DNA from: Acidimicrobiaceae bacterium
GTDB lineage: Bacteria > Actinomycetota > Acidimicrobiia > Acidimicrobiales > Aldehydirespiratoraceae
NCBI GenBank assembly: GCA_028819505.1
Contig: JAPPLH010000085.1
Coordinates: 1-58,467 of the forward strand
Direction: 5' to 3'
DNA: 58,467 nt
Shown here: one piece after another, positions 20,244 through 54,471 of the stretch
How the letters are laid out: the number at the start of each line of letters is the position of its first letter
Numbering within the stretch: the stretch's first letter is position 1
Notes under the pieces: model-generated
Database searches by the model: none
Told to the model about the DNA's origin: nothing
What the model saw: only the letters and a program-made list of their open reading frames with translations
Position numbers and translations under genes: made by a program

Positions 20244-21497
20244 GTGCGGACCCGATACTCCGAGGATCAGCAGGCCGTCGCTGAGGCCTTCGGTGACCTG
20301 TTCGCCCGCGAGGCGACTCCCGAAGCGGTGCGGGCCGCGGAGGCGGGCTGCGGTTTCGATCCGGGACTGTGGCGCAAGCTCGCCGCCGCGGGCGCTCCGG
20401 GGATGGCAGTGGGAGTCGCCGACGGGGGCGGCGGGGCCTCGCTCGTCGATCTTGCTGTGGTGGTCCACGAATGGGGTCGGCGGCTAGCGCCGGTCCCGCT
20501 GGTGGAGCACGCGGTGTGCGCCCGGCTGCTCGCCTCAGCCGGCGGGGCGCGGGAACTGGTGGTCCGGCGCGGAGTTGATGATCCGGACCGTCCACGGGTC
20601 CAGGCAGGTGAACGCATCCGTCATGCGGATCACGGCTTCTCCGACACACCACTGGTCGCCGCGGTGGCATCCGGCGATCTGATCGCCACACTCGCGCCCG
20701 GGCCGGTCGAACCGGACGGGACGTCCCGGCTCGTACCCGCCGGCGCGGTGGCCGACGTCGTGGCGGCCAGGCGCGGCGACCACGTCGTGGTCGCCCGCGG
20801 CCGACCCCCCGGCGCGGCCCGCCCCAACACCGCGGATCTGCCCCTCGCCGACCGGGATCTCTCCGGTGCGGAGACCGTGGCTTCCGGGGCGGCGGCCGCA
20901 GGCGCATGGGACCGCGCCATGGCCGAATGGAAGGCGCTCATGGCGGTGGCCTATGCCGGGCTGGCCGGCGAGGTGCTGGCCATGGGGGTGGCCTACACCA
21001 AGCAGCGCCACCAGTTCGGCGTGCCGGTCGGTTCCTTCCAGGCCGTGCAGCACGGGTTGGCCGACGCCGCCACCCGCAGCGAGGGCGCCCGGCTGCTCGC
21101 CTTCCGGGCCGTCTGCGCCGTCGACGCCGGCCGGGCCGACGGCGCCCGGCTCGCCTCGATGGCGCTGCTGTTCGGCGCCGAGTCGGCCCGGTTCGCGGCC
21201 GACCGGGTGCTGCAGTACCACGGCGGCTACGGCTACAGCGCCGAGTACGACGTCCAGCTCTACTACCGCAGGGCCGCCGGCTGGCTGCTGCAGCTCGGCG
21301 AGCCCGCAGCCGAGACAGCCCGGCTCGCCGACGCCGACCTGGGCCCCAAGAGGCCGAGCGGACAGGCAGCGAATCGTGACACCCTGCGGGAACGTCCTAG
21401 AGAGGCCCCGTGGCCTCAGCGGCCCGTGAGCGCAGCGAACAAGAGCGGGGGGCAGGCCCGAGCAGCCCGTGAGCGCAGCGAACAAGAGCGGGAGTGA
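20244..21497 (+). CDS. Acyl-CoA dehydrogenase with repeat-derived C-terminal tail
   Basis: A 417-residue protein from GTG 20244 (VRTRYSEDQQAVAEAFGDLF). The middle and C-terminal domains are FadE-like: AYAGLAGEVLAMGVAYTKQR, HQFGVPVGSFQAVQH and QYHGGYGYSAEYDVQLYYRR. Such proteins oxidise acyl-CoA with FAD and often pair with a second, different subunit, as here with the next gene. Two oddities are visible. A roughly 36-residue in-frame insertion (about 20565-20670) contains nested palindromes. The last 50 residues are not enzyme-like and are encoded by two interspersed repeat copies, PVSAANKSG then ARAARERSEQERE-stop. Substrate is unknown; steroid or long-chain acyl-CoA is possible given the thiolases at 49-51 kb. 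Confidence 0.8.
   Translation: MRTRYSEDQQAVAEAFGDLFAREATPEAVRAAEAGCGFDPGLWRKLAAAGAPGMAVGVADGGGGASLVDLAVVVHEWGRRLAPVPLVEHAVCARLLASAGGARELVVRRGVDDPDRPRVQAGERIRHADHGFSDTPLVAAVASGDLIATLAPGPVEPDGTSRLVPAGAVADVVAARRGDHVVVARGRPPGAARPNTADLPLADRDLSGAETVASGAAAAGAWDRAMAEWKALMAVAYAGLAGEVLAMGVAYTKQRHQFGVPVGSFQAVQHGLADAATRSEGARLLAFRAVCAVDAGRADGARLASMALLFGAESARFAADRVLQYHGGYGYSAEYDVQLYYRRAAGWLLQLGEPAAETARLADADLGPKRPSGQAANRDTLRERPREAPWPQRPVSAANKSGGQARAARERSEQERE
21421..21493 (+). repeat. Interspersed coding-permissive repeat, two copies
   Basis: Two copies of the core GCAGCGAACAAGAGCGGG with upstream GCCCGTGAGC lie 43 bp apart at the 3' end of the acyl-CoA dehydrogenase gene. They are translated in two different frames because the spacing is not a multiple of three. 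Confidence 0.85.
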
Positions 21498-21552
21498 CAT
21501 CGATGCAACGCCAGCGGCTCTCGCCCGTCCACACCAAGGACAGGTCTGCGTG

Positions 21553-22719
21553 ATGGACTTCTCCATGCCGGCACAGGCCGAGGCGTTCCGTGAGGAGGTC
21601 CGGCAATTCCTGGCTGACCACTTGACCGGCGAGATGATCGCCGCGACCCGCGACGGCACCATCCACTCCGGTGCCCTGCACCGGGCCATCGCTGATCGGG
21701 GCTGGCTGTCGGGCGCGGTGCCAGCCGAGCTGGGCGGGGGCGGCATGGACCCGGTCGAGCTGTGCGTGCTGGTCGAGGAACTGCAGCTCCACCAGGCGCC
21801 CGCCGACGCGCTGGGGGTGGCCGTGGTGGTGGTGTCGATGATCCTGGAGCACGGCAACGAGCACCTGCACGGCGCGGTCGCGCCGCGGCTCCTGTCGGGT
21901 GAGGCCCTGGGGTGCCTCGGCTACAGCGAGCCCGAGTCCGGCTCCGACGTGGCCGCGGCCCGCACCCGGGCTGTGCGCGACGGAGACCGGTGGGTCATCA
22001 ACGGCTCCAAGATGTGGACGACCCTGGCCCATGTGGCCGACTACGTGCTGCTGCTAACCCGGACCGACCCCGAGGCGCCGAAGCATCGGGGGCTGACATT
22101 CTTCGTGGTGCCCCTCGACACGGCCGGCATCGAGATCCGGGCCGTCTCCACGATGGGAGACGAGAGGTCGAACGCCACCTTCTACGACGACGTGGTGCTC
22201 GGCGACGAGTGGCGCCTCGGCGGGGTGAACGACGGCTGGACGGTGATGAAGACCGCCCTCAAGTACGAGCGGGGCATCGCCGGCGGCCAGTTCCCGTCGC
22301 CTCCGGTGATCGAGGCGGCGGTCGACTGGGCCCGCCGCGCCCGCCGGGCCGACGGCAGCCGTCCCATCGACGACGACGACGTGCGCCACAAGCTGGTGCG
22401 GGCCATGATCGATGTGGAGGTGTGCCGCAGCTTCGCCTACCACACCGCCGCCCTGGCGTCGGAGGGCGCCATGTTCGGGGTGGAGGGGTCGATGACCAAG
22501 CTGTTCGCGTCGGAGTCCTACAAGAAGCACTGCGGCTGGTTCCTCGACATGATGGGCGCCGAGGGGCTGCTCACCCGCGACGATCCGGGCGCCCACATGG
22601 AGGGCCGGATCGAGGAGCACTTCCGCCACGCCCCGGTGACCGCCATCTACGGCGGCACCAGCGAGATCAACCGCAACCTGGTGGCCGAGGGCTGGCTGGG
22701 CCTGCCCCGGTCACGCTGA
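21553..22719 (+). CDS. Acyl-CoA dehydrogenase
   Basis: A 388-residue FadE-type enzyme. ATG 21553 (MDFSMPAQAEAFREEVRQFL) is favoured over upstream starts because the extra residues would come from the repeat; AAGGA lies about 12 bases ahead. The FAD/substrate segment CLGYSEPESGSDVAAARTRA and the C-terminal TAIYGGTSEINRNLVAEGWL are intact and of normal length. It follows the other acyl-CoA dehydrogenase by 55 bp and may form a heteromeric enzyme with it. The unit ends at the inverted repeat 22740-22799. Confidence 0.9.
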   Translation: MDFSMPAQAEAFREEVRQFLADHLTGEMIAATRDGTIHSGALHRAIADRGWLSGAVPAELGGGGMDPVELCVLVEELQLHQAPADALGVAVVVVSMILEHGNEHLHGAVAPRLLSGEALGCLGYSEPESGSDVAAARTRAVRDGDRWVINGSKMWTTLAHVADYVLLLTRTDPEAPKHRGLTFFVVPLDTAGIEIRAVSTMGDERSNATFYDDVVLGDEWRLGGVNDGWTVMKTALKYERGIAGGQFPSPPVIEAAVDWARRARRADGSRPIDDDDVRHKLVRAMIDVEVCRSFAYHTAALASEGAMFGVEGSMTKLFASESYKKHCGWFLDMMGAEGLLTRDDPGAHMEGRIEEHFRHAPVTAIYGGTSEINRNLVAEGWLGLPRSR

Positions 22720-22739
22720 GCGAACTTGGAGCCACTTCC

Positions 22740-22799
22740 GTGCGAACTTCAATGGGTTTTCCACCTCAGGGGTGGCTAACTCATTGAAGTTCGTCGCAC
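22740..22799 (+). terminator. Large nested inverted repeat, probable terminator
   Basis: GCGAACTTCAATG (22742-22754) pairs with CATTGAAGTTCG (22782-22793, one-base bulge before CGC), enclosing CCACC-tcagg-GGTGG. No T-run follows. Further G/C-rich inverted repeats continue to about 22880. It separates the acyl-CoA dehydrogenase genes from tRNA-Pro. Confidence 0.5.
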
Positions 22800-22892
22800 G
22801 TCGAGTCTGGGCGCGCCCACCGGCGCCCAACCGATAGAGACTCGTCGAGTTTGGGGGGCTTTGCCCCTCCACGGGTAGCCTGATAAGTCGCA

Positions 22893-22966
22893 CGGGACGT
22901 GGCGCAGCCAGGTAGCGCACCTGCTTTGGGAGCAGGGGGTCGCCGGTTCAAATCCGGCCGTCCCGA
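22893..22966 (+). tRNA. tRNA-Pro (anticodon UGG)
   Basis: A complete cloverleaf can be folded. The acceptor stem is CGGGACG/CGTCCCG, the D arm GGCGCAGCCAGGTAGCGC, the anticodon arm CCTGC-TTTGGGA-GCAGG with TGG at positions 34-36, and the T arm GCCGGTTCAAATCCGGC. The discriminator is A, and CCA is not encoded. It lies 8 bp before the start of the FAD/iron-sulphur gene. Confidence 0.95.
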
Positions 22967-22974
22967 CTCTTGCC

Positions 22975-24594
22975 ATGAGCCAACTTCACGAAGCCCAACG
23001 CCGGGCCGATCCGATCAAACGATATGTGGCGCCCGAGTCGTTGGAGGACGCCTTGGCCGTGCTCGCGGCACGCGGCCCCTCGGCCCGCGCCGTCGCCGGC
23101 GGCACCGACCTGCTGCTGGAGCTCAGCCGCGGCGCGAGAACCGGCATCGACACGCTCGTCGATCTGAGCGTGCTCGATGGGCTCGACACCATCACCGAGC
23201 ACCGCGGCCGGGTGGAGTTGGGGCCCCTGGTAACCCACGGCGACGTGGTCGGATACGAGCGGATGCTGTCGGTGGGGCTCCCGCTGGCGCAGGCCTGCCT
23301 GGAAGTCGGAGGCCCGCAGCTTCGCAACCGGGCCACGATCGTCGGCAACATCGTCACAGCCAGCCCCGCCAACGACACGATCTCCGCGCTGTACGCTCTC
23401 GGCGCCGACGTGACCGTCTCGTCGGCCGGCGGCGGCCACCGGACCATGCCGATCGAGGACTTCTTCACCGGTTTCCGCACCACCGCGCTGGACCCGGGCG
23501 AACTCGTGACCAGGATCTCCTTCGACGCGCTCGGCGGGGGCCGCCGGGGCATATTCGTGAAGCTCGGGCTGCGGAGGGCTCAGGCCATCTCGGTGGTCCA
23601 CGCCGCCGCGGTCGTCACCGAGGGCAGCGACGGAACCGTGTCCGACCTGGTGGTGGCCCTGGGCAGTGTCGGCCCGACCATCGAACTGGTGGACGCGGCC
23701 ACCGGCATAGCCAGGGGACGGCTCCTCGCCGACGCGGCCGCCGACGTCGCGGCCGCGTCCCGGGCTGCGGTCACACCCATCGACGACCTGCGTTCCACCG
23801 CCGAGTACCGCAGCCACACGGTGGAGGTTGTGGTGGAGCGGGCGCTGCGGTCGCTGGCGGCCGGCACCGAGGCCGCCACCTGGCCCCAGAGCCCGCCCCG
23901 CCTGGTCGCCGTCGCAGATTCCCCGGCACCATCAGCGCCAAAGGAGCCCTCCCGGCGGGAGGTGACCGGCGCCGGCACCATCACGGCCACCATCAACGAC
24001 GTCGAGCGCACCGCAGCCAACGCCGCTGGCCGCACCCTGCTCGACTGGCTGCGATTCGACCTCGGGCTGACCGGCACCAAGGAGGGCTGCGCCGAGGGCG
24101 AGTGCGGAGCCTGCACCGTCCACCTCGACGGCCGGGCCGTGCTGTCGTGCCTGGTGCCCGCGGCCCGGGCCGACGGCACGAGCATCACCACCGTCGAGGG
24201 CGTCGCCCCGCCCGACGGGAGCCTGCACCCCGTCCAGCAGGCCCTGGCCGACTGCGGGGGCGTCCAGTGCGGCTTCTGCACCCCGGGGTTCGTGATGAGC
24301 GCGGCCATGCTGGCCGCCGAGGAGCCTCAGCCGAGCCGGGAGCAGGTGGAGCACGGCCTGGCCGGGAACCTGTGCCGCTGCACGGGGTACTACTCGATCA
24401 TCGACGCCCTCGCCAGAGGCCGAGCGGACGGATCCACAATCGGCCGGGATGCTCACGAGACGCAGAGCGAGGCCGTGGCCCGAGCGGCCCGTGAGCGCAG
24501 CGAACAAGAGCGGGAAACACCAGGCCGCACCGCGACGCGGCACAACCGATCTGCGCATGCTGCAACCACCAACGGCGAGGCCGCGCTCCGATGA
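22975..24594 (+). CDS. Xanthine dehydrogenase family, fused FAD and 2Fe-2S subunit
   Basis: This 539-residue protein joins two subunits that are usually separate. Residues 14-300 form the FAD-binding medium subunit (AVAGGTDLLLEL, QLRNRATIVGNIVTASPAND). After a Pro/Ser linker, residues 340-480 form the small subunit with two [2Fe-2S] sites: CAEGECGACTVHLDG for the plant-type cluster and CGFCTPGF plus NLCRCTGY for the second. The last 55 residues are not family-like and include AVARAARERSEQERE from the interspersed repeat. The next gene, the molybdenum subunit, overlaps it by four bases (ATGA). Purine hydroxylation is plausible given the purine cluster, but aldehyde, CO-dehydrogenase-like or N-heterocycle substrates are not excluded. 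Confidence 0.9.
   Translation: MSQLHEAQRRADPIKRYVAPESLEDALAVLAARGPSARAVAGGTDLLLELSRGARTGIDTLVDLSVLDGLDTITEHRGRVELGPLVTHGDVVGYERMLSVGLPLAQACLEVGGPQLRNRATIVGNIVTASPANDTISALYALGADVTVSSAGGGHRTMPIEDFFTGFRTTALDPGELVTRISFDALGGGRRGIFVKLGLRRAQAISVVHAAAVVTEGSDGTVSDLVVALGSVGPTIELVDAATGIARGRLLADAAADVAAASRAAVTPIDDLRSTAEYRSHTVEVVVERALRSLAAGTEAATWPQSPPRLVAVADSPAPSAPKEPSRREVTGAGTITATINDVERTAANAAGRTLLDWLRFDLGLTGTKEGCAEGECGACTVHLDGRAVLSCLVPAARADGTSITTVEGVAPPDGSLHPVQQALADCGGVQCGFCTPGFVMSAAMLAAEEPQPSREQVEHGLAGNLCRCTGYYSIIDALARGRADGSTIGRDAHETQSEAVARAARERSEQERETPGRTATRHNRSAHAATTNGEAALR
24469..24515 (+). repeat. Interspersed coding-permissive repeat inside a gene
   Basis: One long copy (GAGGCCGTGGCCCGAGCGGC followed by the core GCAGCGAACAAGAGCGGG) lies in frame within the 3' part of the fused FAD/iron-sulphur gene and is translated as EAVARAARERSEQER. 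Confidence 0.85.
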
Positions 24595-26852
24595 GCGTCG
24601 GCGCCTCCCCGGCTCGCATCGATGCGCCGGCCAAGCTCACCGGCGCGGCCGAGTACCCGAGCGACCGGATCCCGCCCGGCGCGCTGTGGGCCATGGCGGT
24701 GTTCACCGACCAGCCCCACGCCCGCCTGACCGGGCTCAGCCTCGAGGCCGCTGAAGCCGTCGAGGGAGTGGTGGCGGTGTTCGGCTCGGCCGACGTGCCC
24801 GTGAACGAGTTCGGCCTCACCATGGCCGACCATCCCGTGTTCGTCGGCCTCGAGCACACCGGCCGCAGTCACCTGCCCTGCGACGTGTCCCGCTGGGAGG
24901 CGGACCGGCTGGCGCTGGTCGTGGCCGAAACGCCCGACGCGGCCCGGGCGGGGGCGGCCGCCATCGAGGCCCAGTGGGAGCCGTTGCCGGTCCTGGCCGA
25001 CATCGACCAGTCGCTGTCCTCGGAGACGATGATCCACCCCGAGAACGGCAAGCCGTCCAACGCCTACTACTCGCTGCGCATCCGCAAGGGCGACATGGAG
25101 CAGGGCTGGGCCGACGCCGATGTGGTGGTGGAGTCGACCTACGAGTTCCCCTACCAGGAGCACGCCTACCTGCAGCCCGAGGCCGGCATGGCCTACATCG
25201 ACGAAGAGGGCCGGGTGACGGTCGAGGTCGCGGGCCAGTGGACCCACGAGGACCAGGAGCAGATCGCCCACGCCCTCGACCTGCCGGCCGGGCGGGTCCG
25301 GGTGATCTATCCGGCCATCGGCGGCGCCTTCGGCGGACGCGAGGACATATCGGTCCAGATCGTGCTGGGCCTGGCCGCAATGAAGCTCCACGAGCGGGGC
25401 ATCGACCGCCCGGTGGCCACCGTCTGGTCGCGCGAGGAGTCGATCGTCGGGCACGGCAAGCGCCACCGGGGCCGCATCACCGCCCGCTGGGGCGCCCGGC
25501 GCGACGGCCGGATCACCGCGGTTCACAGCACAGCCTGGCTCGACGCCGGCGCCTACAACTTCACGTCCAACAAGGTGCTGGGCAACTGCCACCTGCACCA
25601 GGCCGGCCCCTACGAGGTGCCCAACGCCGAGATCGACAGCCTCGCGGTGTACACCAACGCCACGCCGGCCGGTGCGTTCCGGGGCTTCGGCGCCCCCCAG
25701 GCTGCCTTCGCGGCCGAGAGCCAGATCAACAAGCTGGCCGAGGCGCTGGGCATGGACCCGGTGGAGATCCGCCGCGTCAACACCCTGCGCGAGGGCAGCG
25801 TCGGCATCACCCAGTCGGCCATGCCCGAGGGCGTGACCATGCCCGAGGTGATCGACCGCTGCACCGAGGCCGCGGCGGCGCCCGCCTCCAACGGCGGCGG
25901 CGCGGCCTTCAGCCCGTTCCCCTCGCTGCCGCCCGAGCCGTCGGCGCTGCGCCGGGGCCGGGGGTTCGCCTGCTCGTTCAAGAACGTCGGGTTCTCGTTC
26001 GGCTTCCCGGAGCGGTGCGAGGCCGAGATAGTGCTCCACGGCGGCCAGGACTCCGGCGTGCCTGAACGGGCCGAGCTGTACCACGCCGGCGCCGAGGTGG
26101 GCCAGGGCGCCCACACTGCGCTGGTGCAGATGGCCGCCGAGGCCACCGGGCTGCCCGCGGACCGCATCGAGCACCGCTTCAGCGACACCGCCACCTCCGG
26201 CGACGCGGGCTCGGCGTCGGCGTCGAGGCTCACCTGGATGTCGGGCAACGCCATCCTGGGCGCGGCCGAGGAGGCCGAGAAGGCCTGGCGGGACGGCCGG
26301 CGCCCGGCAGTGGGCCGCTTCCGCTTCGTGCCTCCGCCCACTGAGTCGCTCGACCCCGTCGACGGCCACTGCGTCCCCAATTTCAGCTACGGCTACGTGG
26401 CCCAGCACGTGGAACTCACGGTGGACACCGGCACCGGCCACATCCGGGTCGACCGGGTAGTGAGCGCCCACGATGTGGGGCGAGCCATCAACCCGGACCT
26501 GGTGGTGGGCCAGATCGAGGGCGCGGTGATCCAGGCCCACGGATACGCGCTGAGCGAGAACCTTCGCTCCGAGGCGGGCCGCCTCCAGAACATGCGGCTG
26601 AGCACCTACCTGATGCCCGGCATCGGCGACATCCCGACCACCGTCGACAGCGTCGTGCTGGAGCTGGCCGACCCGCTGGGCCCGTGGGGCGCCCGGGGCA
26701 TGGCCGAGATGGGCATGATTCCCTACGCCCCCGCGGTGGCAGCCGCCCTCCACGACGCCACCGGCGTCTGGTTCGACAGCTTCCCCCTCACCCCCGACCG
26801 GGTCCTGGCCGGCCTCGCCGACACCCAACTACCTACACCCCCGAACGGGTAG
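24591..26852 (+). CDS. Xanthine dehydrogenase family, molybdopterin-binding subunit
   Basis: A 753-residue catalytic subunit, of normal length for the family. Cofactor-binding segments are visible: IGGAFGGRED, the stretch NATPAGAFRGFGAPQAAFAA and AEVGQGAHTALVQMAAEATG. The C-terminal GPWGARGMAEMG carries the Glu that acts as general base. It is coupled to the fused redox subunit by an ATGA overlap, so one subunit of each would make the minimal enzyme. The end of this gene (HGYALSENL, then ALHDATGVWFDSFPLTPDRV) is repeated as a broken copy at 28.6 kb. Confidence 0.9.
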   Translation: MSVGASPARIDAPAKLTGAAEYPSDRIPPGALWAMAVFTDQPHARLTGLSLEAAEAVEGVVAVFGSADVPVNEFGLTMADHPVFVGLEHTGRSHLPCDVSRWEADRLALVVAETPDAARAGAAAIEAQWEPLPVLADIDQSLSSETMIHPENGKPSNAYYSLRIRKGDMEQGWADADVVVESTYEFPYQEHAYLQPEAGMAYIDEEGRVTVEVAGQWTHEDQEQIAHALDLPAGRVRVIYPAIGGAFGGREDISVQIVLGLAAMKLHERGIDRPVATVWSREESIVGHGKRHRGRITARWGARRDGRITAVHSTAWLDAGAYNFTSNKVLGNCHLHQAGPYEVPNAEIDSLAVYTNATPAGAFRGFGAPQAAFAAESQINKLAEALGMDPVEIRRVNTLREGSVGITQSAMPEGVTMPEVIDRCTEAAAAPASNGGGAAFSPFPSLPPEPSALRRGRGFACSFKNVGFSFGFPERCEAEIVLHGGQDSGVPERAELYHAGAEVGQGAHTALVQMAAEATGLPADRIEHRFSDTATSGDAGSASASRLTWMSGNAILGAAEEAEKAWRDGRRPAVGRFRFVPPPTESLDPVDGHCVPNFSYGYVAQHVELTVDTGTGHIRVDRVVSAHDVGRAINPDLVVGQIEGAVIQAHGYALSENLRSEAGRLQNMRLSTYLMPGIGDIPTTVDSVVLELADPLGPWGARGMAEMGMIPYAPAVAAALHDATGVWFDSFPLTPDRVLAGLADTQLPTPPNG

Positions 26853-28583: not shown

Positions 28584-28586
28584 CCC

Positions 28587-28745
28587 ACGGATACGCGCTG
28601 AGCGAGAACCTCCAATCAGACGGTGGCCGCCGCCCTGCACGACGCCACCGGCGTCTGGTTCGACAGCTTCCCGCTCACCCCCGACCGGGTCCTGGCCGGC
28701 CTCCACGGCACCAAGCCACGCCCCGAGGCGCTGCCGCATCCCTAG
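28587..28745 (+). pseudogene. Deleted duplicate of the molybdenum-subunit 3' end
   Basis: Bases 28587-28612 (CACGGATACGCGCTGAGCGA and following) match 26538-26563. The text then jumps to a match of 26737-26815, encoding ALHDATGVWFDSFPLTPDRV and LAGL. About 170 bp between the two segments has been lost. It follows the toxin gene by 4 bp. Confidence 0.8.
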
Positions 28746-28785
28746 CCGCCCTACGGCCAGCGAAGCGCCCGCCGCGTCGCAGCCG

Positions 28786-38809: not shown

Positions 38810-38937
38810 GGCGACGAAGAAGGCGTTGGCGGCTATGAGCGCCAGCGCGGCCAGAAGCCACAGCGCGGTCTCGATCGCTCCTCCCAGGATCGTCCGGGCC
38901 TGTCAGCCGCGAATCTAGCCCGCTGCGCCGTTGCTTC

Positions 38938-38985
38938 CCGCTCTTGTTCGCTGGGCTCACGGGCCGCCCGGGCCACGGCCCCGCC
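38938..38985 (-). repeat. Interspersed coding-permissive repeat, intergenic copy
   Basis: CCCGCTCTTGTTCGCTGGGC and GGGCCGCCCGGGCCACGGCC follow each other here, one base off the core in the left part. It lies between the CNNM gene and the ABC exporter, outside any supported gene. Confidence 0.8.
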
Positions 38986-39046
38986 AACTTGCCTTGCAGG
39001 AGTCCTGGTTGGACGCGCAGGTCCGCTCGGCCCGTAACTTGGCCTG

Positions 39047-40819
<1,773 letters not shown>

Positions 40820-40831
40820 GGCGTTGCGATT

Positions 40832-40885
40832 CCCGCTCTTGTTCGCTGCGCTCACGGGCCGCTCGGGCCACGGCCTCGCTCGGAG
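40832..40885 (-). repeat. Interspersed coding-permissive repeat between two ABC genes
   Basis: The longest intergenic copy: CCCGCTCTTGTTCGCTGCGC then ACGGGCCGCTCGGGCCACGG and CCTCGCT. It sits between the two exporter genes, reverse to their direction of transcription. The surrounding 155-bp gap holds nothing else I can name. Confidence 0.85.
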
Positions 40886-40973
40886 GGCGCTCACCCCGCG
40901 ATCTCGTGACGGACTCGCTCGGCCTCAGGGGCGCCGCCGACGATGCGGCCCGCGCCGGCCGGCAGGCGGGCTG

Positions 40974-45232: not shown

Positions 45233-45249
45233 CTGCCCGCTCCGACCTG

Positions 45250-46431: not shown

Positions 46432-46600
46432 GTCGAAGCCCACCACGGGGAGACTACTCACAGGCTGGGATCCGCTCCTATCCGGGCGGCCGGGGCGGAA
46501 CCATGCGACGCCCCGGACCCGAGCGGCTGTGAATGCAGACGACAAGCGCGGGAGACCCGTCCGAGCGGCCCTCAGGCCGCGGCGAACAGGCACGGGACGG

Positions 46601-46711
46601 GTCGCGGCTAGAGCACGGCCAGGCCGGATCCGGCGACCTCGGCCCGCACGACGGGGAAGTAGTCGTCCGATCCGTCGCGGCTAGAGCACGGCCAGGCCGG
46701 ATCCGGCGACC
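46601..46711 (-). repeat. 38-bp perfect direct repeat of the thiN 3' end, 73-bp offset
   Basis: Bases 46674-46711, covering the last residues (VAGSGLAVL) and stop of thiN, are identical to 46601-46638 downstream. The offset equals that at the 3' end of the large gene near 8.7 kb. Bases 46557-46596 also resemble a worn copy of the interspersed repeat. Confidence 0.85.
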
Positions 46712-47343: not shown

Positions 47344-47425
47344 GACGCCGCCCTCCGGATCCGCAGGGCCACAGCCCGCCGGGCGCGCCCACCCGGGCGC
47401 GGCGCGCCGGCCATGCCCGACCCGT

Positions 47426-48643
47426 TCATGGCAAGTACGGCGTGGGGTCCACGGCCTTGCCGTCGATGCGCAGTTCGAAGTGCAGGTGGGGGCCGGTGGA
47501 CCATCCGGTGGAGCCGATCGCGCCGATGCGGTCGCCGCTCTGCACGTTCTGGCCCTCGGACACCTCGATGCGGCTGAGGTGGGCGTATAGCGTGCTGTAC
47601 CCGAGCCCGTGGTAGATGACGATGGTGTTGCCGAAGCCGCCGCGCTGTCCGGCCAGGATCACCTCGCCGGAGCGGGCCGCCCTGACCCGGTCCCCGGTGT
47701 CGCCGCCGAGGTCGATCCCGTTGTGCTGGCGCACCGTCCCGAAGATGGGGTGGACCCGCGGCCCGAATCCCGACGTCTTCTCCCCGTCCGCGGGCCAGGC
47801 CACCAGCTCGAAGGGGCCGTGCTCGGCCTCGTGGCGGCGCCGCTCCTCCTCGATGGCGCGGCGGCGGGCCTCCTCCTCCTGGCGGCGCCGCTCCTCCTCT
47901 CTGCGCCGGATCTCCTCCTCGATGCGGAAGATCTCCTGCTCCATCTCCGTGTCGGACCGCTCGATGTCGGCCGACACGAGATTCCATTCCTCGATGCGGG
48001 ACTGGATCTCCAGACGCAGCTCCGTCGCCGCGGCACGGGCGTCCTGGAGGTCGGCGAGCCGCTGCTGCTGGGCCTGCCGCTCCTCGTCGGCGGCCTCGGC
48101 CCGGTCGAGGGCCCGCCGGCGCACCACCTCGAGCTGGGCCTCTGCGGTCCGCAGCTCGTCGGTGATCTCCAGTTCGCTGCCTATGGCCAGGTCGAGCAGG
48201 AACAGCTTCACCGCGCTCTCGTTGAGGCTGGTCGAGAACTGCTCGACGACGTCGACGGGCGGCTGCACGTAGGCCTGGATGGCCCGCTGCCGCAGGCGCT
48301 CCCGGATGGTCTCGATCTCGTCGACATACCATTCGGCCTCGGCCCGGGCCGCGGCCGCCTCGGCTTCCGCGGCCACGATGGCCGACTCGGCCGCCTCGAT
48401 CCGGGTGTACTGGAGGTCGACGAAGTCGTCCAGTTCCCGGAGCGCGTCGATCAGGGCCTCGTCGTCCGCTACGAGCGCATCAATCTGGCTGGCCGCGTCG
48501 GCGGCGTCGCGGGCCAGCTGCTCCCGCTGCTGGCGGAGATCCTCGATCCGCTCGTCGTCCTGTGCCAGCGCGGCGGCCGCCATCAGCGCTGCCGCCGACC
48601 CGATCAGCAGCAGCGCGCCGGAGAGGCGCCGCAGCCTACGCAC
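47426..48643 (-). CDS. Exported coiled-coil M23 metallopeptidase
   Basis: A 405-residue protein from GTG 48643 (VRRLRRLSGALLLIGSAAAL), whose N terminus is a clear signal peptide ending near AAALAQ. Residues 30-255 form a long coiled coil (IEDLRQQREQLARDAADAAS ... RRREEERRRQEEEARRRAIE). The C-terminal LytM/M23 domain carries the zinc ligands HNGIDLGG and HLHFEL and starts at VAWPADGEKTSGFGPRVHPI. The layout is that of EnvC/NlpD-like cell-division hydrolases or activators. With all zinc ligands present it is probably an active endopeptidase. The start is supported by a promoter that would yield a leaderless mRNA. Confidence 0.88.
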   Translation of the reverse strand: MRRLRRLSGALLLIGSAAALMAAAALAQDDERIEDLRQQREQLARDAADAASQIDALVADDEALIDALRELDDFVDLQYTRIEAAESAIVAAEAEAAAARAEAEWYVDEIETIRERLRQRAIQAYVQPPVDVVEQFSTSLNESAVKLFLLDLAIGSELEITDELRTAEAQLEVVRRRALDRAEAADEERQAQQQRLADLQDARAAATELRLEIQSRIEEWNLVSADIERSDTEMEQEIFRIEEEIRRREEERRRQEEEARRRAIEEERRRHEAEHGPFELVAWPADGEKTSGFGPRVHPIFGTVRQHNGIDLGGDTGDRVRAARSGEVILAGQRGGFGNTIVIYHGLGYSTLYAHLSRIEVSEGQNVQSGDRIGAIGSTGWSTGPHLHFELRIDGKAVDPTPYLP

Positions 48644-48650
48644 CCCGAAT

Positions 48651-48679
48651 ATCGTAACGAAAAGGCAATATTTCCGCAA
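48651..48679 (-). promoter_or_regulatory. Promoter for a leaderless M23 peptidase mRNA
   Basis: On the minus strand TTGCGG (48674-48679) and TACGAT (48651-48656) are 17 bp apart. The GTG start at 48643 lies 7 bp past the -10 box, where transcription should begin, so the message would begin at or next to the start codon. Confidence 0.65.
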
Positions 48680-48787
48680 TCTGTGCGCAACAATTCTGCG
48701 GGCGCTGCCAAGAGTGTCCGGCGCGCCCATCGGGAACTACGAAGCCGGGGGCTCAGGCGAGGCCGCCCGCGGTGCGGCGCTGCCTTC

Positions 48788-48838
48788 CCCGCTCCTGTTC
48801 GCTGCGCTCACGGGCCGCTCGGACCACGGCCTCGCTGA
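48788..48838 (-). repeat. Interspersed coding-permissive repeat downstream of a thiolase-like gene
   Basis: CCCGCTCCTGTTCGCTGCGC then ACGGGCCGCTCGGACCACGG and CCTCGCT; two bases differ from the copy at 40.8 kb. It lies about 46 bp past the stop of the thiolase-like gene and in the same sense as that gene. Confidence 0.83.
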
Positions 48839-48884
48839 GCGTCCCGCCACGACCATCACGATTCGTCGCCCTCCCGCTCGGCCT

Positions 48885-50048
48885 CTACAACTTGCCGGCG
48901 CCGACGATCCACATGGCGAAGTACTGGGCCCCGCCGCCGTAGGCATGGCCCACCGCCCGGCGGGCGCCGTCCACCTGGTGCTCACCGGCCGCGCCCATCA
49001 CCTGAAGTGCCGCCTCGGCGAACCGGATCATGCCGGACGCCCCGATCGGGTTGCTCGACAGCACCCCGCCGGAGCAGTTGACCGGCAGGTCGCCGCCGTC
49101 GAGCCCGGTCGCCCCGGACTCCACCATGCGCCAGCCCTCGCCGGTGGACGCGAACCCAAGGCTCTCCAGCCACATCGGCTCGTACCACGAGAACGGCACG
49201 TACATCTCGACGGCGTCGATCCCGGACCGCCGGTCGACGATGCCGGCCTGCGCGAACACGTCGTCGGCGCACTGCTCCGACGCGGCCGGCGACACCATGT
49301 TGCGGCCGCCGTAGCTGTTGCTCTCGCTGCGCATGGCCGTGCCGTGCACCCAGGCGACCGGCCCGGCATGGCGGTCGCCGCCCGCCTCGTCGACGAGGAC
49401 CATGGCGCAGGCGCCGTCGGAGGAGGGGCAGGTCTCGGAGTAGCGGATCGGGTCCCACAGCATCGGCGAGTCCACGACCTGCTCGAAGGTGAGGTCGTGC
49501 TGGTGGAGGTGGGCGTACGGGTTGAGCAGGGCCTGGCGGCGGTCCTTGTGGGCCACCATGCAGCCGATCAACTCGGGGGCGCCGGTCATCATCATGTAGC
49601 GGCGGATTATCGGCGAGAAGTAGCCGCCCGCCCCGGCGTTGACCGACGTGGCGAAGGGCTGCGGGAGCGACAGGGCCCACATGGCGTTGGACTCCGACTG
49701 CTTCTCCCAGCCGATGGTGAGCACGCAGCGGTGGACGCGGCTCTGCACCATCGACGCTGCCACGCAGGCGGTCGAGCCCCCGACCGAGCCCGCGGTGTGG
49801 ACCCGCATGATCGGCTTGCCCACCGCCCCCAGCGCCTCGGCGAGATAGATCTCGGGCATCATCACGCCCTCGAAGAAGTCGGGCGCCTTGCCGATGATCA
49901 CGGCGTCGATGTCGCTCCAGGTCTTGCCGGCCATCTCCAGCGCCCGGTAGGCGGCCTCGCGCAGCAGCCCGGCCATGGACACGTCGCGGCGGGCCGCGGC
50001 GTACTTGGTCTGGCCGACCCCGATGACCGCGGTGCGTTCAGCGGCCAC
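48885..50048 (-). CDS. Thiolase-fold lipid-transfer protein
   Basis: A 387-residue thiolase-superfamily protein. It starts GTG 50048 (AAERTAVIGVGQTKYAAARR). The active-site Cys equivalent is in VGGSTACVAASMVQ, and the C-terminal signature is VNCSGGVLSSNPIGASGMIR with HAYGGGAQY in place of the usual GGGQG end. Such Ltp/SCP2-thiolase-like proteins work with DUF35 partners as aldolases or thiolases in steroid or branched acyl-CoA breakdown. It is the last gene of the DUF35-thiolase operon and is separated from the previous gene by three hairpins. Confidence 0.85.
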   Translation of the reverse strand: MAAERTAVIGVGQTKYAAARRDVSMAGLLREAAYRALEMAGKTWSDIDAVIIGKAPDFFEGVMMPEIYLAEALGAVGKPIMRVHTAGSVGGSTACVAASMVQSRVHRCVLTIGWEKQSESNAMWALSLPQPFATSVNAGAGGYFSPIIRRYMMMTGAPELIGCMVAHKDRRQALLNPYAHLHQHDLTFEQVVDSPMLWDPIRYSETCPSSDGACAMVLVDEAGGDRHAGPVAWVHGTAMRSESNSYGGRNMVSPAASEQCADDVFAQAGIVDRRSGIDAVEMYVPFSWYEPMWLESLGFASTGEGWRMVESGATGLDGGDLPVNCSGGVLSSNPIGASGMIRFAEAALQVMGAAGEHQVDGARRAVGHAYGGGAQYFAMWIVGAGKL

Positions 50049-50080
50049 GATCAGTCACCCTCCCGCACGCGGCCGTCCCG

Positions 50081-50271
50081 CGAACTGGCAGCAGAATGCA
50101 CGCATACCGTGCAAAACGCTGCCAATTCGGCCGTGACCGAGGCTGCGCCCGCGAACTGGCAGCAGAATGCACGCATACCGTGCAAAACGCTGCCAATTCG
50201 GCCGTGACCGAGGCTGCGCCCGCGAACTGGCAGCAGAATGCACGCATACCGTGCAAAACGCTGCCAATTCG
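50081..50271 (-). repeat. Three tandem 49-bp nested hairpins, 71-bp period
   Basis: Copies at 50081-50129, 50152-50200 and 50223-50271 are identical to each other, and the 22-bp spacers are identical too. Each pairs CGAACTGGCAGC with GCTGCCAATTCG (one C:A mismatch) and inside TGCACG with CGTGCA around CATAC. The array fills the gap between two thiolase-like genes. Confidence 0.9.
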
Positions 50272-50281
50272 CCTGGCCATG

Positions 50282-51337
50282 TCAGTCGCCCTCCAGAACG
50301 CACACCATGTTCTGCTGCAGGCACGGGCCCGATGCGGCGTGGGCCACGGCCCGGTCGCCGTCGCCCCGCCAGATCCGCGACGCGGCCTCGCCGATGCGGA
50401 TGAGGCCCGACGCCATCATGGTGTTCGCCGCCAGCGCGCCCCCCGACGGGTTGACGGCGGTGCTGTCCTCGTTGAGGCCGAGAGCGTCGATCAGCAGGTG
50501 CTCGGAGGTGGTGAAGGGGCCGTGCAGCTCGGCCAGGTCGATCTTGTCGCCGGCCGCGCCCGCGTGGTGAGCGGCCAGCCGAGCCGAGGCCGACGACGTG
50601 AGGTCCCGCACGCCGAGGGTGTGGGCGTCGCTGCGATGGTCGATGCCCCGGATCCATGCCGGGCGCTCGCACAGCTCCCGGGCCCGGTCCCCGGCCGCGA
50701 GCACCACCGCGCAGCCGCCGTCGGCCTCTGCCGGGAGGTCGGAGGGCCGCAGCGGGTCGATCGCATAGTCCTCGGCCAGGATCTCGGCCACCGACTTGGG
50801 CTCGGATCTGACCGCGTGGGGATTGGAGGCCGCGCCGGCCCGGCTGCGGGCTGCGATCTCGGCCAGGCGGTTCTCGCTGACATGGCCGCCCTCCAGCATG
50901 AGCCGTGCCGCCAGGGCCTCGATCGCGTACGAGTCGGGCCACAGCGGGCACACGTAGTAGGGGTCCATCTGGGTGGCCAGCACGTCGCGCACCGATCCCG
51001 GCGAGGACTTGCCGTAGCCGTACACGAAGGCGGTGTCGATGCCGCCGCACTGGATCTTCACCCAGGCCTCGTAGAGCGCCCAGGCACCGTCCTGCTCGAC
51101 GTGGCTCTCGCTGATGGGCGGCACCGGACCGGTCCCGTCGATGGTCATCACGAACGAGAACGCCTGCCCGGCCAGGAAGTCCGAGGAGCCCGAGCAGGTG
51201 AACCCCATGTCGGACTGGGTCAAGCCGACGGACGCCTTGGCCTGCTCCATCAGCGGGACCATGAACTCCACCTCGGATTCGCCGGAGATGGCCGCCTCCT
51301 GGCGCTGCGCGAAAGCCACGACGGCGACGTCGATCAT
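50282..51337 (-). CDS. Thiolase-fold lipid-transfer protein, short type
   Basis: A 351-residue thiolase-like protein from ATG 51337 (MIDVAVVAFAQRQEAAISGE). TCSGSSDFLAGQAFSFV occupies the active-site loop, with Ser-Ser where thiolases have Cys, so C-C bond cleavage by the normal thiolase mechanism is doubtful. The C-terminal part has ELHGPFTTSEHLLIDALGLN and VNPSGGALAANTMMASGLIR. It is likely one half of a heteromer with the other thiolase-like protein and DUF35 proteins. The 5' end is preceded by duplicated copies of the region around the ATG. Confidence 0.82.
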   Translation of the reverse strand: MIDVAVVAFAQRQEAAISGESEVEFMVPLMEQAKASVGLTQSDMGFTCSGSSDFLAGQAFSFVMTIDGTGPVPPISESHVEQDGAWALYEAWVKIQCGGIDTAFVYGYGKSSPGSVRDVLATQMDPYYVCPLWPDSYAIEALAARLMLEGGHVSENRLAEIAARSRAGAASNPHAVRSEPKSVAEILAEDYAIDPLRPSDLPAEADGGCAVVLAAGDRARELCERPAWIRGIDHRSDAHTLGVRDLTSSASARLAAHHAGAAGDKIDLAELHGPFTTSEHLLIDALGLNEDSTAVNPSGGALAANTMMASGLIRIGEAASRIWRGDGDRAVAHAASGPCLQQNMVCVLEGD

Positions 51338-51369
51338 GCCGGCGCGGCCTCGACCGCGAATCTCGAAGT

Positions 51370-51451
51370 GTCGATCATGGTGGCGTTCACCCCGGCCATG
51401 ATTCCCGAACGTCGATCATGGTGGCGTTCACCCCGGCCATGATTCCCGAAC
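51370..51451 (-). repeat. Perfect 41-bp tandem duplication upstream of a thiolase-like gene
   Basis: 51370-51410 and 51411-51451 are identical. On the coding strand each begins with or abuts ATGATCGAC, the same text as the start of the thiolase-like gene (51337) and of the sequence at 51471, giving four spaced ATGATCGAC motifs. Confidence 0.85.
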
Positions 51452-51468
51452 GTCGACCCGGACGTCGA

Positions 51469-52068
51469 TCATCGGTCGCTCGCCTCGACGCGGCCGATCC
51501 GCTCGTAGTCGGTGATGACCTCGTCGGGCTCGCCGGTGGGCGCCCAGCCGAGGATGTTGGCCGCGGAGGTCTCGAGCTCCTCGTCGGGCTTCCACACGGC
51601 CCGCACTCGCATGCCGATGCGGACCTCCTCCGGCGCGATGTCGATGACGAGGCCCAGGAACCCCACCGACGCACCGTCGAGGACGATCCAGGCGCTGCAG
51701 TAGGGTGGCTCGAGGTCGGGGCGCCGCTCTATGGGGACCCGGGTGATGTTGAAGGACTCGACGTAGCCGGTGTCGGCCAGCTCGACGGCTTCGCTGGTGG
51801 CCGCGCCGGCCAGGGGGCTCACTCCCCGGGGCGGAACGAACACCTGGCCGGTGGCGCCGCAGCGCTCCCCGAGGATCCGCTTGCCGGCCATGGCCCGCAG
51901 GTATCTCGACAGCGCCCGTCCCGGCGTGTACGTGTAGGTCATCCGGATGGGCGTGCACACGCTCTCCACCGGTTCGGCACCGGCCAGCGCACCGGGCAAC
52001 GTCACCGGCGCGGACAGGGCGGCCGGCGCTGCCAGCGGATCGCGGGCCGCGGCTGAGTCCGGGCTCAC
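51469..52068 (-). CDS. DUF35 OB-fold acyl-CoA-associated protein
   Basis: A 199-residue protein from GTG 52068. The N-terminal 35 residues are Ala/Pro-rich. Next comes a helical part (ALSRYLRAMAGKRILGERCG) and a zinc-ribbon-like start in which only one of the expected CxxC pairs is seen (ERCGATGQVFVPP), then the OB-fold: GYVESFNITRVPIERRPDLE, PPYCSAWIVLDGASVGFLGL and RIGMRVRAVWKPDE. DUF35 proteins pair with thiolase-fold partners. Its start overlaps the stop of the preceding DUF35 gene (GTGA). Confidence 0.83.
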   Translation of the reverse strand: MSPDSAAARDPLAAPAALSAPVTLPGALAGAEPVESVCTPIRMTYTYTPGRALSRYLRAMAGKRILGERCGATGQVFVPPRGVSPLAGAATSEAVELADTGYVESFNITRVPIERRPDLEPPYCSAWIVLDGASVGFLGLVIDIAPEEVRIGMRVRAVWKPDEELETSAANILGWAPTGEPDEVITDYERIGRVEASDR

Positions 52069-52733
52069 TGGACCTCGCCGGGTGGGATCGGCTCGAAGCC
52101 GGCCATGTCGGCGATGTGCCCGTGAACTGGGCGGACCGCCTGAGCGAGGCCGGGTGGGATCGGCTCGAAGCCGGCTATGTCGACGACGTGGCCGTGAGCT
52201 GGGCGGACCGCCTGAGCGAGGCCGGGTGGGATCGGCTCGAAGCCGGCTATGTCGGCGATGTGGCCCTCACGTTCGGCGCGCCACACGGCTCGAACCCTCA
52301 TGCCGGTCGACATCTCGGCCGCGCCGACGGCGAACACGGCGTGCAGCATCGAGGTGTCGGCGCCGTCGAGACGTATCAGGGCCCACGCGAACGGCCGGTC
52401 GAACGGCTGCATGGGGCGGGGGTCGCCGTTCCAGGCCCAGGTGAGGACCTCCCCGGCCTGTCCCACCTCCACCAGTTCGGTGAGCGGTTCGGCGGTGAGC
52501 GGGTCGTACTCCTGCGGGGGGCACAGCACGGTCCCGTCGGAGCGGCGGATGCCGCAGATCACGCCGTCTCGCAGCCCGGTGAGGAACGCGCCGATCACCG
52601 GTCCTGTCGAGCGGGTGAACGGATACTCGAGAACGAGCGGAGCCTGCAGGACGTCGGGTGCCACTGCCCCCGATGCTACGCGCCCCTCACTCACCCCCGA
52701 CGCATCCCCGCCCCGCGACAGCCGGTTGCTCAT
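52065..52733 (-). CDS. DUF35-like OB-fold protein with a 24-residue tandem repeat at the C terminus
   Basis: A 222-residue protein if started at ATG 52733; GTG 52664 (VAPDVLQAPLVLEYPFTRST) may be the true start since similarity begins there. It has GLRDGVICGIRRSDGTVLCP with a two-Cys zinc-ribbon remnant, the segment WAWNGDPRPMQPFDRPFAWA and MSTGMRVRAVWRAER as in DUF35/OB-fold acyl-CoA proteins. A normal end would be GHIADIAGFEP. Here that segment is repeated nearly three times with IPPGLAQAVRP spacers. It is first in the DUF35-thiolase operon, upstream of the second DUF35 gene. Confidence 0.8.
   Translation of the reverse strand: MSNRLSRGGDASGVSEGRVASGAVAPDVLQAPLVLEYPFTRSTGPVIGAFLTGLRDGVICGIRRSDGTVLCPPQEYDPLTAEPLTELVEVGQAGEVLTWAWNGDPRPMQPFDRPFAWALIRLDGADTSMLHAVFAVGAAEMSTGMRVRAVWRAEREGHIADIAGFEPIPPGLAQAVRPAHGHVVDIAGFEPIPPGLAQAVRPVHGHIADMAGFEPIPPGEVQ
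52079..52272 (-). repeat. 72-bp in-frame tandem repeat within a coding region
   Basis: The text beginning GGGATCGGCTCGAAGCCGG starts at 52084, 52156 and 52228, a period of exactly 72 bp with few substitutions. It encodes 24-residue units GHIADIAGFEPIPP plus GLAQAVRPAH. Confidence 0.88.
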
Positions 52734-52869
52734 TTGCGAGCATCGGTGGCACGTTGGTGCGTGGAGGTGGGGGGACTCGAAACCTGCGAGTCAGTTCAGA
52801 GCCGGTCGCAGCACCATGCCACCCCCATCCGAAGTTCGTGAGCAGCCTGCTTGCCCCCAAGCTTCGACG

Positions 52870-52897
52870 GAGAGCCGGAGGTCAGTCTCCGGCTCTC
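52870..52897 (-). terminator. 11-bp stem hairpin
   Basis: GAGAGCCGGAG and CTCCGGCTCTC pair perfectly around GTCAGT, about 40 bp past the stop of the minus-strand membrane protein gene. No T-run follows on either strand, so it may be a terminator or an mRNA-stabilising hairpin. The rest of 52734-52935 has no gene. Confidence 0.45.
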
Positions 52898-52935
52898 TCA
52901 TGTCTGCATTATGACCGTGGTGGCAAGCGGCGCGA

Positions 52936-54471
52936 TCACGCTCCCAGCAGCAGGAGCAGGCCGATGACGGTGTAGCAGATCATCACCGCAAGCATCGGGT
53001 ACTGCGAGCGCATCGCCAGCCGGCGGGGCCAGCGCTCCACGGCCCGGTCGTGGGCCACCGCCACGGCCAGGACGTGGCCCGCAGCGATGGCCGCGGTCTG
53101 CGTCCAGGCGATGGTGTCGGTGGAGATGGCGGTGTAGTCCACCAGGTAGGTGGCCGTGCCGAAGAGGTCCCATCCCCGGCCGAAGGGATCGGAGATGTGG
53201 GCGATGATCTGCCGGCCCTCCCACAGCAGGTAGCTGAAGTAGTGGGCGACGGTGTAGGCCGCGGCGATCGGCATCAGCGAGGGTGCGAAGGCGTCGGCCA
53301 GTTCCCTCTCTGTGTCGCCGGTGATGGCGGCCATGCCCGCGATGGCGGCCCGGTAGAGCACGAACACCGCGAAGATCACGAACACCAGCCCGACGGTGTT
53401 GACCGCGGTCAGTTCCCAGCCGGTGCGCTGGGCGGCCACGTCGAGCCATACCGAGCTGCGGGTGAAGCCGTCGAAGGTGGTGGAGCCGAGCACCACCAGG
53501 ATGAACGCCACCGAGCCCCGCTTGACGGGGAGGGCGGCCAGGCCGGCCAGCGGCGCCCGCAGTCTCAGGGCGCCGCCTTCGCGGTGGAGCGGCGCCATGG
53601 CCGACAGTTTGGTGAACAGCACGCCGAACCCCTCGGCGTCGCGCAGCCAGCCGCGGCCGAATGCCGCCGCGCCAGCCAGCAACGCGACCGTGTAGGCGGC
53701 CAGGCACGCGCCGAGCACCCGGATGCCGGTGCTGTCGTGGAAGGCGAGCTCGAGCCAGACGAAGCCGAAAACTGAGGCGGTGGCCCACCAGTGGTTCCCC
53801 GCGCCCCGCTCGCAGTCGCTGTGATCCCGGCTCTTGTTCGCTGCGCTCACGGGCCGCTGGGGCCGTGCCTCCCGCTCTTGTTCGCTCCGCTCACGGGCCG
53901 CTGGGCCCGGGGGCCTCGCTGAATTCCCGCTGATCCCACCGGCAGGACTGCCGTCCGCCCGCTCGGCCTCTTGGGGCCGGCTGCGGAGGCGGGCCCATGC
54001 CCGGGCCGATCCGTCGGCGATGGTGGTGAACGGGCTCAGGTGCAGCCACACGTCGCCCACCAGCACCGACACCACCTGGAGCCCCACCCAGAAGATGATG
54101 TAGACCGCGACCGGCGCGATGTTCACCGACGGGTTGGTGTTGCCGGCCAGCCCCGCGTAGAGCAGCACGGCAAGAGCGAGCAGGCCGAGCGTCCGGACCA
54201 CCGTCGCTTGCACCCGGCAGGCGGCCTGGAACGGCCCGGGGAGGACCCGCCCGGCCGCGGCGGCCCGGAACTTCGGCGTGTCCCAGAACATGCCGAGGGC
54301 CACGAAGGAGGCGGCCACCGCGAACGACGCGGCCCATGCGAGTTGCCACAGCGGCACCGGCAGGTCCAGGCGGCCGCCCACGCCGTGCGCGGCTGCGACG
54401 TCCGCCGACACCCACAGCGCGGCGGCTGCCATCGCTCCCGTTGCCGGGATCCGGCGGAGGGTCCGCCTCAT
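52936..54471 (-). CDS. Multi-pass membrane protein, fenitrothion-hydrolase-like, with repeat insertion
   Basis: A 511-residue protein from ATG 54471; a TTG at 54492 is possible. The N terminus is a signal-like helix followed by AHGVGGRLDLPVPLWQLAWA, as in actinobacterial proteins labelled fenitrothion hydrolase. About 11 hydrophobic segments follow, including IAPVAVYIIFWVGLQVVSVL and VAHYFSYLLWEGRQIIAHIS. A hydrophilic loop of some 55 residues between WLHLSPFTTIADGSARAWAR and NHWWATASVFGFVWLELAFH is not expected. It contains two in-frame copies of the interspersed repeat (ARERSEQERE, then PVSAANKS). The hydrolase label rests on remote similarity; a transport or metal-related role is as likely. 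Confidence 0.75.
   Translation of the reverse strand: MRRTLRRIPATGAMAAAALWVSADVAAAHGVGGRLDLPVPLWQLAWAASFAVAASFVALGMFWDTPKFRAAAAGRVLPGPFQAACRVQATVVRTLGLLALAVLLYAGLAGNTNPSVNIAPVAVYIIFWVGLQVVSVLVGDVWLHLSPFTTIADGSARAWARLRSRPQEAERADGSPAGGISGNSARPPGPAARERSEQEREARPQRPVSAANKSRDHSDCERGAGNHWWATASVFGFVWLELAFHDSTGIRVLGACLAAYTVALLAGAAAFGRGWLRDAEGFGVLFTKLSAMAPLHREGGALRLRAPLAGLAALPVKRGSVAFILVVLGSTTFDGFTRSSVWLDVAAQRTGWELTAVNTVGLVFVIFAVFVLYRAAIAGMAAITGDTERELADAFAPSLMPIAAAYTVAHYFSYLLWEGRQIIAHISDPFGRGWDLFGTATYLVDYTAISTDTIAWTQTAAIAAGHVLAVAVAHDRAVERWPRRLAMRSQYPMLAVMICYTVIGLLLLLGA
53827..53908 (-). repeat. Interspersed coding-permissive repeat, two copies inside a membrane protein gene
   Basis: Two copies, 44 bp apart, are read in the sense of the gene. 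The first met by the ribosome gives AARERSEQERE and the second PVSAANKSR, again in two different frames, without a stop or frameshift to the host protein. Confidence 0.87.

Follow-up and report, generated by a model that had tools for sequence, protein, structure and literature searches.

The 58,467-nucleotide stretch of Acidimicrobiaceae bacterium DNA considered here (assembly GCA_028819505.1, contig JAPPLH010000085.1, positions 1 to 58,467; hereafter the window) raises a simple question: what is the short repeat that recurs in it on both strands, within genes as well as between them? A sequence-only reading had described a unit of about 40 bp, open in five of its six frames, and had likened it in concept to the palindromic coding elements of Rickettsia. 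The unit is in fact larger, the 40 bp being the central part of an element of about 135-147 bp. The repeat is very probably the conserved core of a non-autonomous transposon, a miniature inverted-repeat transposable element (MITE) of the IS5 family that constitutes a new family in the Acidimicrobiia and has a length of about 135 or 146-147 bp.

Distribution of the core

The core, GCAGCGAACAAGAGCGGG, has eight good matches in the window, with 0-1 mismatch each, where 0.11 matches would be expected by chance at three or fewer mismatches. They start at 21432, 21475 and 24497 on the + strand and at 38937, 40832, 48788, 53827 and 53871 on the - strand, in agreement with the eight clear copies previously claimed, some of whose starts had been placed 11-28 bp upstream of the core. 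Nor is the core rare in the rest of the genome. Over its 3.73 Mb (G000 in what follows, other G numbers denoting other genomes) there are 188 places with at most two mismatches, split 104 and 84 between the strands, and none for a reversed control.

Within its own genus the core occurs, at one mismatch or fewer, in 15 of 16 genomes. Of 51 family genomes, 21 contain a 30-base pattern at up to three mismatches, all from two of the family's ten genera: 15 of the 16 in the own genus (none in G001), all six in a second genus, and none of the 29 in the remaining genera. A class-wide draw of 395 genomes yielded 13 with the core; four of these, each having 1-5 places, lie outside the family. Among the matches listed (80 of at least 116 stretches), the carriers are metagenome-assembled genomes of Acidimicrobiia, Acidimicrobiaceae or Microthrixaceae, one being labelled simply "bacterium". 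A core variant, GTGAACGAAGTGAAC, occurs in another family of the class (L098-type genomes G164 and G231, at 1 and 5 places) and could be a branch of the element that is older or was transferred. In L048 and L055, tandem core arrays with a period of about 45 bp break off at assembly gaps (N), and array length there may vary between cells. An Rfam search returned one tRNA only, with no match to the core; the core and its peptides turned up in no open-licence paper searched, and the same literature gave nothing on point for MITE combined with Acidimicrobi- and transposase or, among the matches listed, on stop-codon landing.

Ends and internal structure of the element

The ends of the MITE, GAGGCCGAGCGGATAGG...CCTATCCGCGCACGCTC, were read at sites that are empty in relatives. 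They form imperfect terminal inverted repeats of about 17 bp, and the 135-147 bp that they enclose hold no transposase gene and fall well under the 600 bp allowed for elements of this kind. There are two length classes, type A of 135 bp and type B of 146-147 bp, the latter having a long 5' module. Conservation is strongest over a block of about 49 nt, from -30 to +18 relative to the core start, and is weaker on both sides. Most 5' ends lie between -67 and -72 from the core in type A and between -77 and -82 in type B; complete copies have their 3' end at +66, one base either way.

These features were tallied on 265 distinct copies drawn from the own genome, its relatives and named records, 230 of them single and 35 tandem; copies near a stretch end or containing N were removed before counting, and tandem copies were excluded from the counts of ends, duplications, arms and stop codons. 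The own genome was represented by 60 stretches around listed core matches, amounting with the window to 1.06 Mb, a sample enriched for copies because it was chosen around those matches. A 5' end within four mismatches was present in 162 of the 230 single copies, about half of which (79) also had a detectable 3' end; 19 further copies have a shortened 5' module, and both ends were detected under the set cut-offs in 78 of the 230. The 5' end (GAGGCCGAGCGG) and an internal near-copy of it (GTGGCCCGAGCGG) may act as direct repeats, so that slippage between them would yield both the 5'-deleted forms and the tandem arrays of 43-45 bp.

Two structural candidates were set aside. A long hairpin with covarying arms seemed plausible from complementarity by eye, but cognate arms outdid swapped arms in only 47 of 89 cases (p = 0.25). 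The second candidate, a d(GCGNAGC) mini-hairpin within the core, was dropped since a CTCAGGTC-type core variant would, judged from the variant alone, break it. The consensus fold is weak, and core folds are average when compared with shuffles.

Insertion polymorphism and target duplication

At 35 core-bearing sites one or more other species lack the element, which is the insertion polymorphism looked for in a MITE. The empty sites come from syntenic stretches of eight relatives, and some of the 35 represent one insertion held by several species. All six good loci in the window are empty in at least one close relative, and the expectation of an inserted, mobile-type repeat missing at orthologous sites is thereby confirmed.

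There is also a footprint of insertion at the flanks. Identical 3-bp flanks occur in 16 of the 78 two-ended single copies, against a mean of 4.6 under shuffled pairing, and none of 5000 shuffles reached 16. An offset scan that did not assume the end (61 offsets, 59 complete copies) was best at +66, with 11 against 4.0. The flanks read C-YNA-G, and the duplication has the form YNA, 3 bp. Duplication readings of 2 bp are also in excess, and a 2-bp NA duplication was the first reading adopted, but both the insertion sequences described below and the offset scan favour 3 bp.

A candidate IS5-family partner

A scan of 16 DDE_Tnp_1 loci of the genus for the MITE ends showed one, in G012, to lie inside a 954-bp insertion sequence (IS) with the same terminal repeats. 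Its transposase of 277 residues scores 142 bits against NF033580 (cut-off 110), with DUF4096 and DDE_Tnp_1 also above cut-off, and on these profile matches it is assigned to the IS5 family. Relatives of this transposase were found in 7 of the 51 family genomes: G003, G012 and G013 in the own genus, G045, G048 and G049 in the other repeat-bearing genus, and G025, outside both, where the match is a 41-residue scrap. Four IS loci have both ends. Two of them are nearly or wholly identical to the MITE-type ends (0 and 0 mismatches in L265, 0 and 1 in L266), while L267 and L276, with 5 and 3 mismatches at the two ends, have a related end; the flanks of L265, L266, L267 and L276 are TAA/TAT, TTA/TTA, TAA/TAA and CAA/CAA. 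Plasmid records gave weak matches to the IS in nine cases, the best covering 26% at 70%. These IS5-type elements are candidate autonomous partners having the same ends as the MITE; an IS5-family IS is thus the likely source of its transposase, which would move it in trans.

Landing sites and stop codons

For 117 core places (at most two mismatches), position relative to genes was assigned with our own codon-based caller script rather than a published caller. Fifty-one lie between two genes on the element's own strand, 14 between two on the other strand, 19 between divergent and 11 between convergent genes, and 15 inside a gene, with 7 partial or at contig edges. Between tandem gene pairs, in a wider set, orientation favours the transcribed strand by 67 to 23 (p = 4e-6).

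The 162 single copies with a good 5' end allow a finer view. Nine are inside one gene, 39 are entered by a gene that stops within them, and 77 lie elsewhere; the rest abut stop codons: in 29 a stop on the same strand (TA|G, TGA| or TAA|) falls exactly at the 5' end, and in 8 an opposite stop falls at the 3' end. Stop-codon landing accordingly accounts for 37 of 153 non-interior insertions (24%), against 1226 of 16744 YNA sites outside gene interiors (7.3%; p = 8e-11), a null counted on the stretches of the own genome and the named records and not on those of the eight relatives. Most available YNA sites, 122918 of 139662, are inside genes. When the 35 polymorphic sites are read in the empty relatives, a native stop is no more than 30 bp away at 14 and a start equally close at 10, the others lying in genes (6) or elsewhere (5), and a native stop occupies the very insertion site at 48788 and at 20633 in G010.

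The consensus target of IS1031-type elements is TNA, and the stop-codon preference follows from the target of the MITE, since this is TNA-type and both TGA and TAA are TNA. In the form C-YNA-G, TGA and TAA fit YNA, and CTA-G covers TAG. Stop-codon sites in a genome of 70% GC would be places where insertion harms little, and a gene would keep its stop after insertion, because TGA or TAA is duplicated whole or TA together with the element's first G re-makes TAG. With the harm low and the stop kept, copies would come to accumulate between genes and at stops; a few inside genes would survive, namely those with an open frame and a combined length of insert and duplication divisible by three.

In-frame insertions and reading frames

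The five copies assigned to coding regions are indeed there: cores 21432 and 21475, 24497, and 53827 and 53871 all lie in called open reading frames (ORFs), whose translations contain PVSAANKSG and/or ARERSEQER as had been claimed. Comparison with orthologues, moreover, proves in-frame insertion at several genes. A complex-I/Mrp-antiporter-type subunit (PF00361), which we take to be NuoN-like, has a 46-residue insertion in G000 and G007 that is absent from 13 of 15 aligned orthologues (G012, whose gene is split over two contigs, was excluded). The acyl-CoA dehydrogenase of G013 also has a 46-residue insertion, the other six sequences having none. Four further in-ORF copies, two in L066 and one each in L032 and L223, are candidate insertions. 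No unrelated lineage was found with the same peptides at the same position. In-frame sites are shared only within one genus, the insertion at 53827 by three species and that in the complex-I-type subunit by two, and the coincidence of position is a matter of descent, because the carriers are species of that genus.

The openness of five frames is real and ordinary at once. Of 230 single cores, 204 have exactly five open frames, but shuffling does not reduce openness (mean 5.25, against 5.03 observed), and complete elements as a set have 2.93 open frames against 2.76 when shuffled; five-frame openness is what shuffled GC-rich DNA gives. Among 47 type A copies, frame +0 is open in 35 and frame -0 in 41, where shuffles give 20.5 and 23.8. 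The standard copy of this type together with its duplication comes to 138 bp, and 28 of the 47 give a multiple of three. The description of the repeat as protein-invading therefore stands insofar as the element sometimes sits in frame in conserved proteins; this is a minority outcome (15 of 117 places and 9 of 162 copies in genes), and the habitat is mainly intergenic.

Conservation of the core

The mean majority-base fraction is 0.937 in the core and 0.95 in the first 12 bases of the 5' end, and it drops to 0.745 at the 3' end. At three sites judged to be plainly shared between species, 3 of 147 core positions differ; the adjoining parts differ at 25 of 122 and 22 of 150, and other intergenic DNA by 9-17%. 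Over all 20 aligned pairs, some of which are probably separate insertions at one hot spot, the figures are 58 of 972 in the core, with 257 of 949 and 160 of 784 in the adjoining parts. A start codon lies no more than 60 bp from the core in 25 of 46 copies that are short at the 3' end, against 5 of 52 complete copies.

Any one of three things could account for these patterns: the core may be under selection, copies may convert one another, or the core may have a role in transposition. We consider it possible, though on balance doubtful, that purifying selection maintains the core of about 49 bp as a functional module, namely a transcription-oriented element of untranslated regions (UTRs) with more than 100 copies, whose cores the host has kept while their 3' transposon ends were lost. 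If this is true, a transposon using stop codons as safe landing sites has planted UTR elements across the genome.

Weighing the explanations

Several observations count against a MITE moved by an IS5-family transposase into a target that includes stop codons. An exact duplication is missing in 62 of the 78 two-ended copies, which would fit old insertions. The 3' module is missing in 52 of 131 copies (31 of the 162 were of intermediate 3'-end quality and were excluded), and these 3'-short copies have no consistent duplication; their best offset accounts for only 4 of 52, which makes a separately mobile form with its own duplication less likely. No copy of the IS was found in the window's own genome or in the most copy-rich relatives, G007, G008 and G011, and it is for this reason that movement in trans is inferred. 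By inspection the IS lacks the core, so descent from the IS does not explain why the core is conserved. Some edge stops of the TA|G type may have been made by the element rather than pre-existing, and native stops were read at two insertion sites and within 30 bp of 14 of the 35.

How do other explanations fare against the same data? One holds that the core works for the host, as a regulatory or RNA element, and that its transposon origin is only history; to this we assign a modest, minority chance. The high conservation relative to the 3' end and, at shared sites, to the adjoining parts argues for it, as do the orientation with transcription and the retention of the core in 3'-shortened copies near start codons. 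That said, neither arms nor folds give a structural signal, Rfam has no match, copies are gained (they are absent at orthologous sites), conversion between copies may be at work, and the clear shared sites number only three. A Rickettsia-type protein-invading element, for which genes would be the main habitat and coding selection would have shaped length and open frames, is an unlikely explanation. In-frame insertions relative to orthologues in four proteins and the length and open frames of type A copies speak for it, but only a small part of the copies are in genes, even though most YNA sites are there, the openness of cores and complete elements is ordinary, and the type A frames are not independent evidence because type A copies share one ancestor.

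The remaining proposals concern the mover. A MITE of an IS630/mariner-type transposon with a 2-bp TA duplication would account for the TA flanks at several copies, and IS630-type genes occur in 6 of 16 genomes; yet none of the 12 loci examined is bracketed by the MITE ends, CA, AA and GA flanks occur as well, and the IS that does have these ends is of the IS5 family by its profile matches and has 3-bp flanks, making this very improbable. The repeat is short, abundant, mostly intergenic and partly clustered, as repetitive extragenic palindromic (REP) elements moved by a Y1 (REP-associated tyrosine) transposase would be, and such an enzyme had been suggested as worth looking for. Y1_Tnp (PF01797) is found in none of the 16 genus genomes, against a match in 5 of 14 control genomes; the MITE has terminal inverted repeats and a target duplication, and the candidate mover that did emerge is an IS5-type DDE transposase. 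The chance that these are REP elements is close to nil.

Copies and other repeats in the window

At 21350-21545 (+; 3' boundary approximate) lies a MITE copy with two tandem cores (21432 and 21475, 43 bp apart), the site being empty in G004, G006, G008, G002 and G010. It gives the acyl-CoA dehydrogenase ORF at 20244-21497 (+; identified by Pfam and alignment) a 49-residue C-terminal tail that orthologues lack. The type B copy at 24416-24562 (+; core 24497; empty in G004, G013, G006, G002 and G011) is in frame in an ORF at 23026-24594 (+), by Pfam an FAD/[2Fe-2S] xanthine-dehydrogenase-type subunit, and adds about 50 residues ahead of the native C-terminus. The copy at 53819-53970 (-; 3' boundary approximate), with tandem cores 53827 and 53871 that are 44 bp apart, is likewise in frame, in an ORF at 52936-54432 (-) that ortholog alignment shows to encode a conserved protein without Pfam match; the product looks like a membrane protein. 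This insertion is common to G007 and G013, with one core each, and absent in G004, G006, G008 and G010; The version in G000 is longer by one core unit, which is translated in a different frame. In G011 the site is empty, and an independent 30-residue insertion lies elsewhere in the same protein.

Three copies lie between genes or at their ends. That at 38933-39034 (-; core 38937), without 3' module, is intergenic between divergent genes; G013 and G002 are empty there, and G004, G006, G007 and G008 hold neighbouring copies in the same place. For the copy at 40784-40926 (-; core 40832), between two ABC-transporter genes, all 16 genus orthologues were read: G007 and G008 also have it (G008 without the 5' module), and 12 of the 16 have none. 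G010 carries an oppositely oriented copy here, an insertion separate from that of G000, G007 and G008, and the site is a possible insertion hot spot. The copy at 48740-48885 (-; core 48788) has its 5' end on the stop codon of the gene at 48885-50048, where TA plus the element's G gives TAG, and relatives with an empty site stop the gene at the same codon. The worn copy suspected near 46560 corresponds to a putative intergenic tandem pair at 46505-46600 (+; cores 46535 and 46579), a weak one with four mismatches in each core. A ninth core match, at 40324 (three mismatches, in an ABC-transporter gene), was rejected as chance; it aligns at the same position in the relatives compared.

Other repeats are present too. 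A different palindromic repeat of the TTGGCAGC...GCTGCCAA type forms three tandem 71-bp copies at 50077-50289, with one more at 17086-17156, and a 72-bp (24-codon) repeat stands three times in tandem at 52077-52292, its units 74-93% alike. A 99-bp direct repeat (26734-26832 and 28621-28719, 91% alike) suggests a partial gene duplication, and a large ORF at the window edge, 54750-58466, has internal repeats of about 97 bp and a GGAGGC simple-repeat stretch at about 55728-55860.

Significance and relation to known systems

A transposon target preference that coincides with stop codons would let an element multiply in a compact, GC-rich genome at little cost. The same MITE adds about 46 residues in frame to proteins such as the complex-I-type subunit, and the orthologues allow one to ask how small transposons become coding sequence and, perhaps, intergenic control elements. 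For annotators of Acidimicrobiia, ...ARERSEQER... and ...PVSAANKSG... in proteins mark transposon-derived sequence.

Pneumococcal BOX elements are modular, with a middle unit of about 45 bp that can be tandemly repeated, and the MITE may be likened to them by build alone; its complete copies have IS5-type ends. The candidate partner IS resembles IS5-family ISs of the IS1031/IS427-like groups in transposase family, a single ORF, a length of about 955 bp, short inverted ends and a 3-bp site, a three-nucleotide site being described for IS1031-group elements as well (PMC2516522). What distinguishes the present element from IS5-family MITEs is a core of about 49 bp that does not come from the IS and is better conserved than the element's own 3' end.

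Rickettsia palindromic elements are described in a review as reaching about 150 bp and lying in frame inside unrelated proteins (PMC10969869). Set beside that description, the proposed likeness in concept holds for in-frame carriage in conserved proteins and fails for habitat, the MITE being mostly intergenic or at stops and having a DDE-type IS as its candidate partner. Further parallels are the Coxiella QMITEs and the elements of enterobacterial repetitive intergenic consensus (ERIC) type, which are likewise MITEs able to extend or enter ORFs. QMITE2, according to the relevant passages, lengthens enhC at its 3' end (PMC5896051) and makes duplications of 7-9 bp, longer than the 3 bp seen here (PMC10969869), and those passages describe no stop-codon preference for QMITEs, unlike that of the MITE in the Acidimicrobiia.

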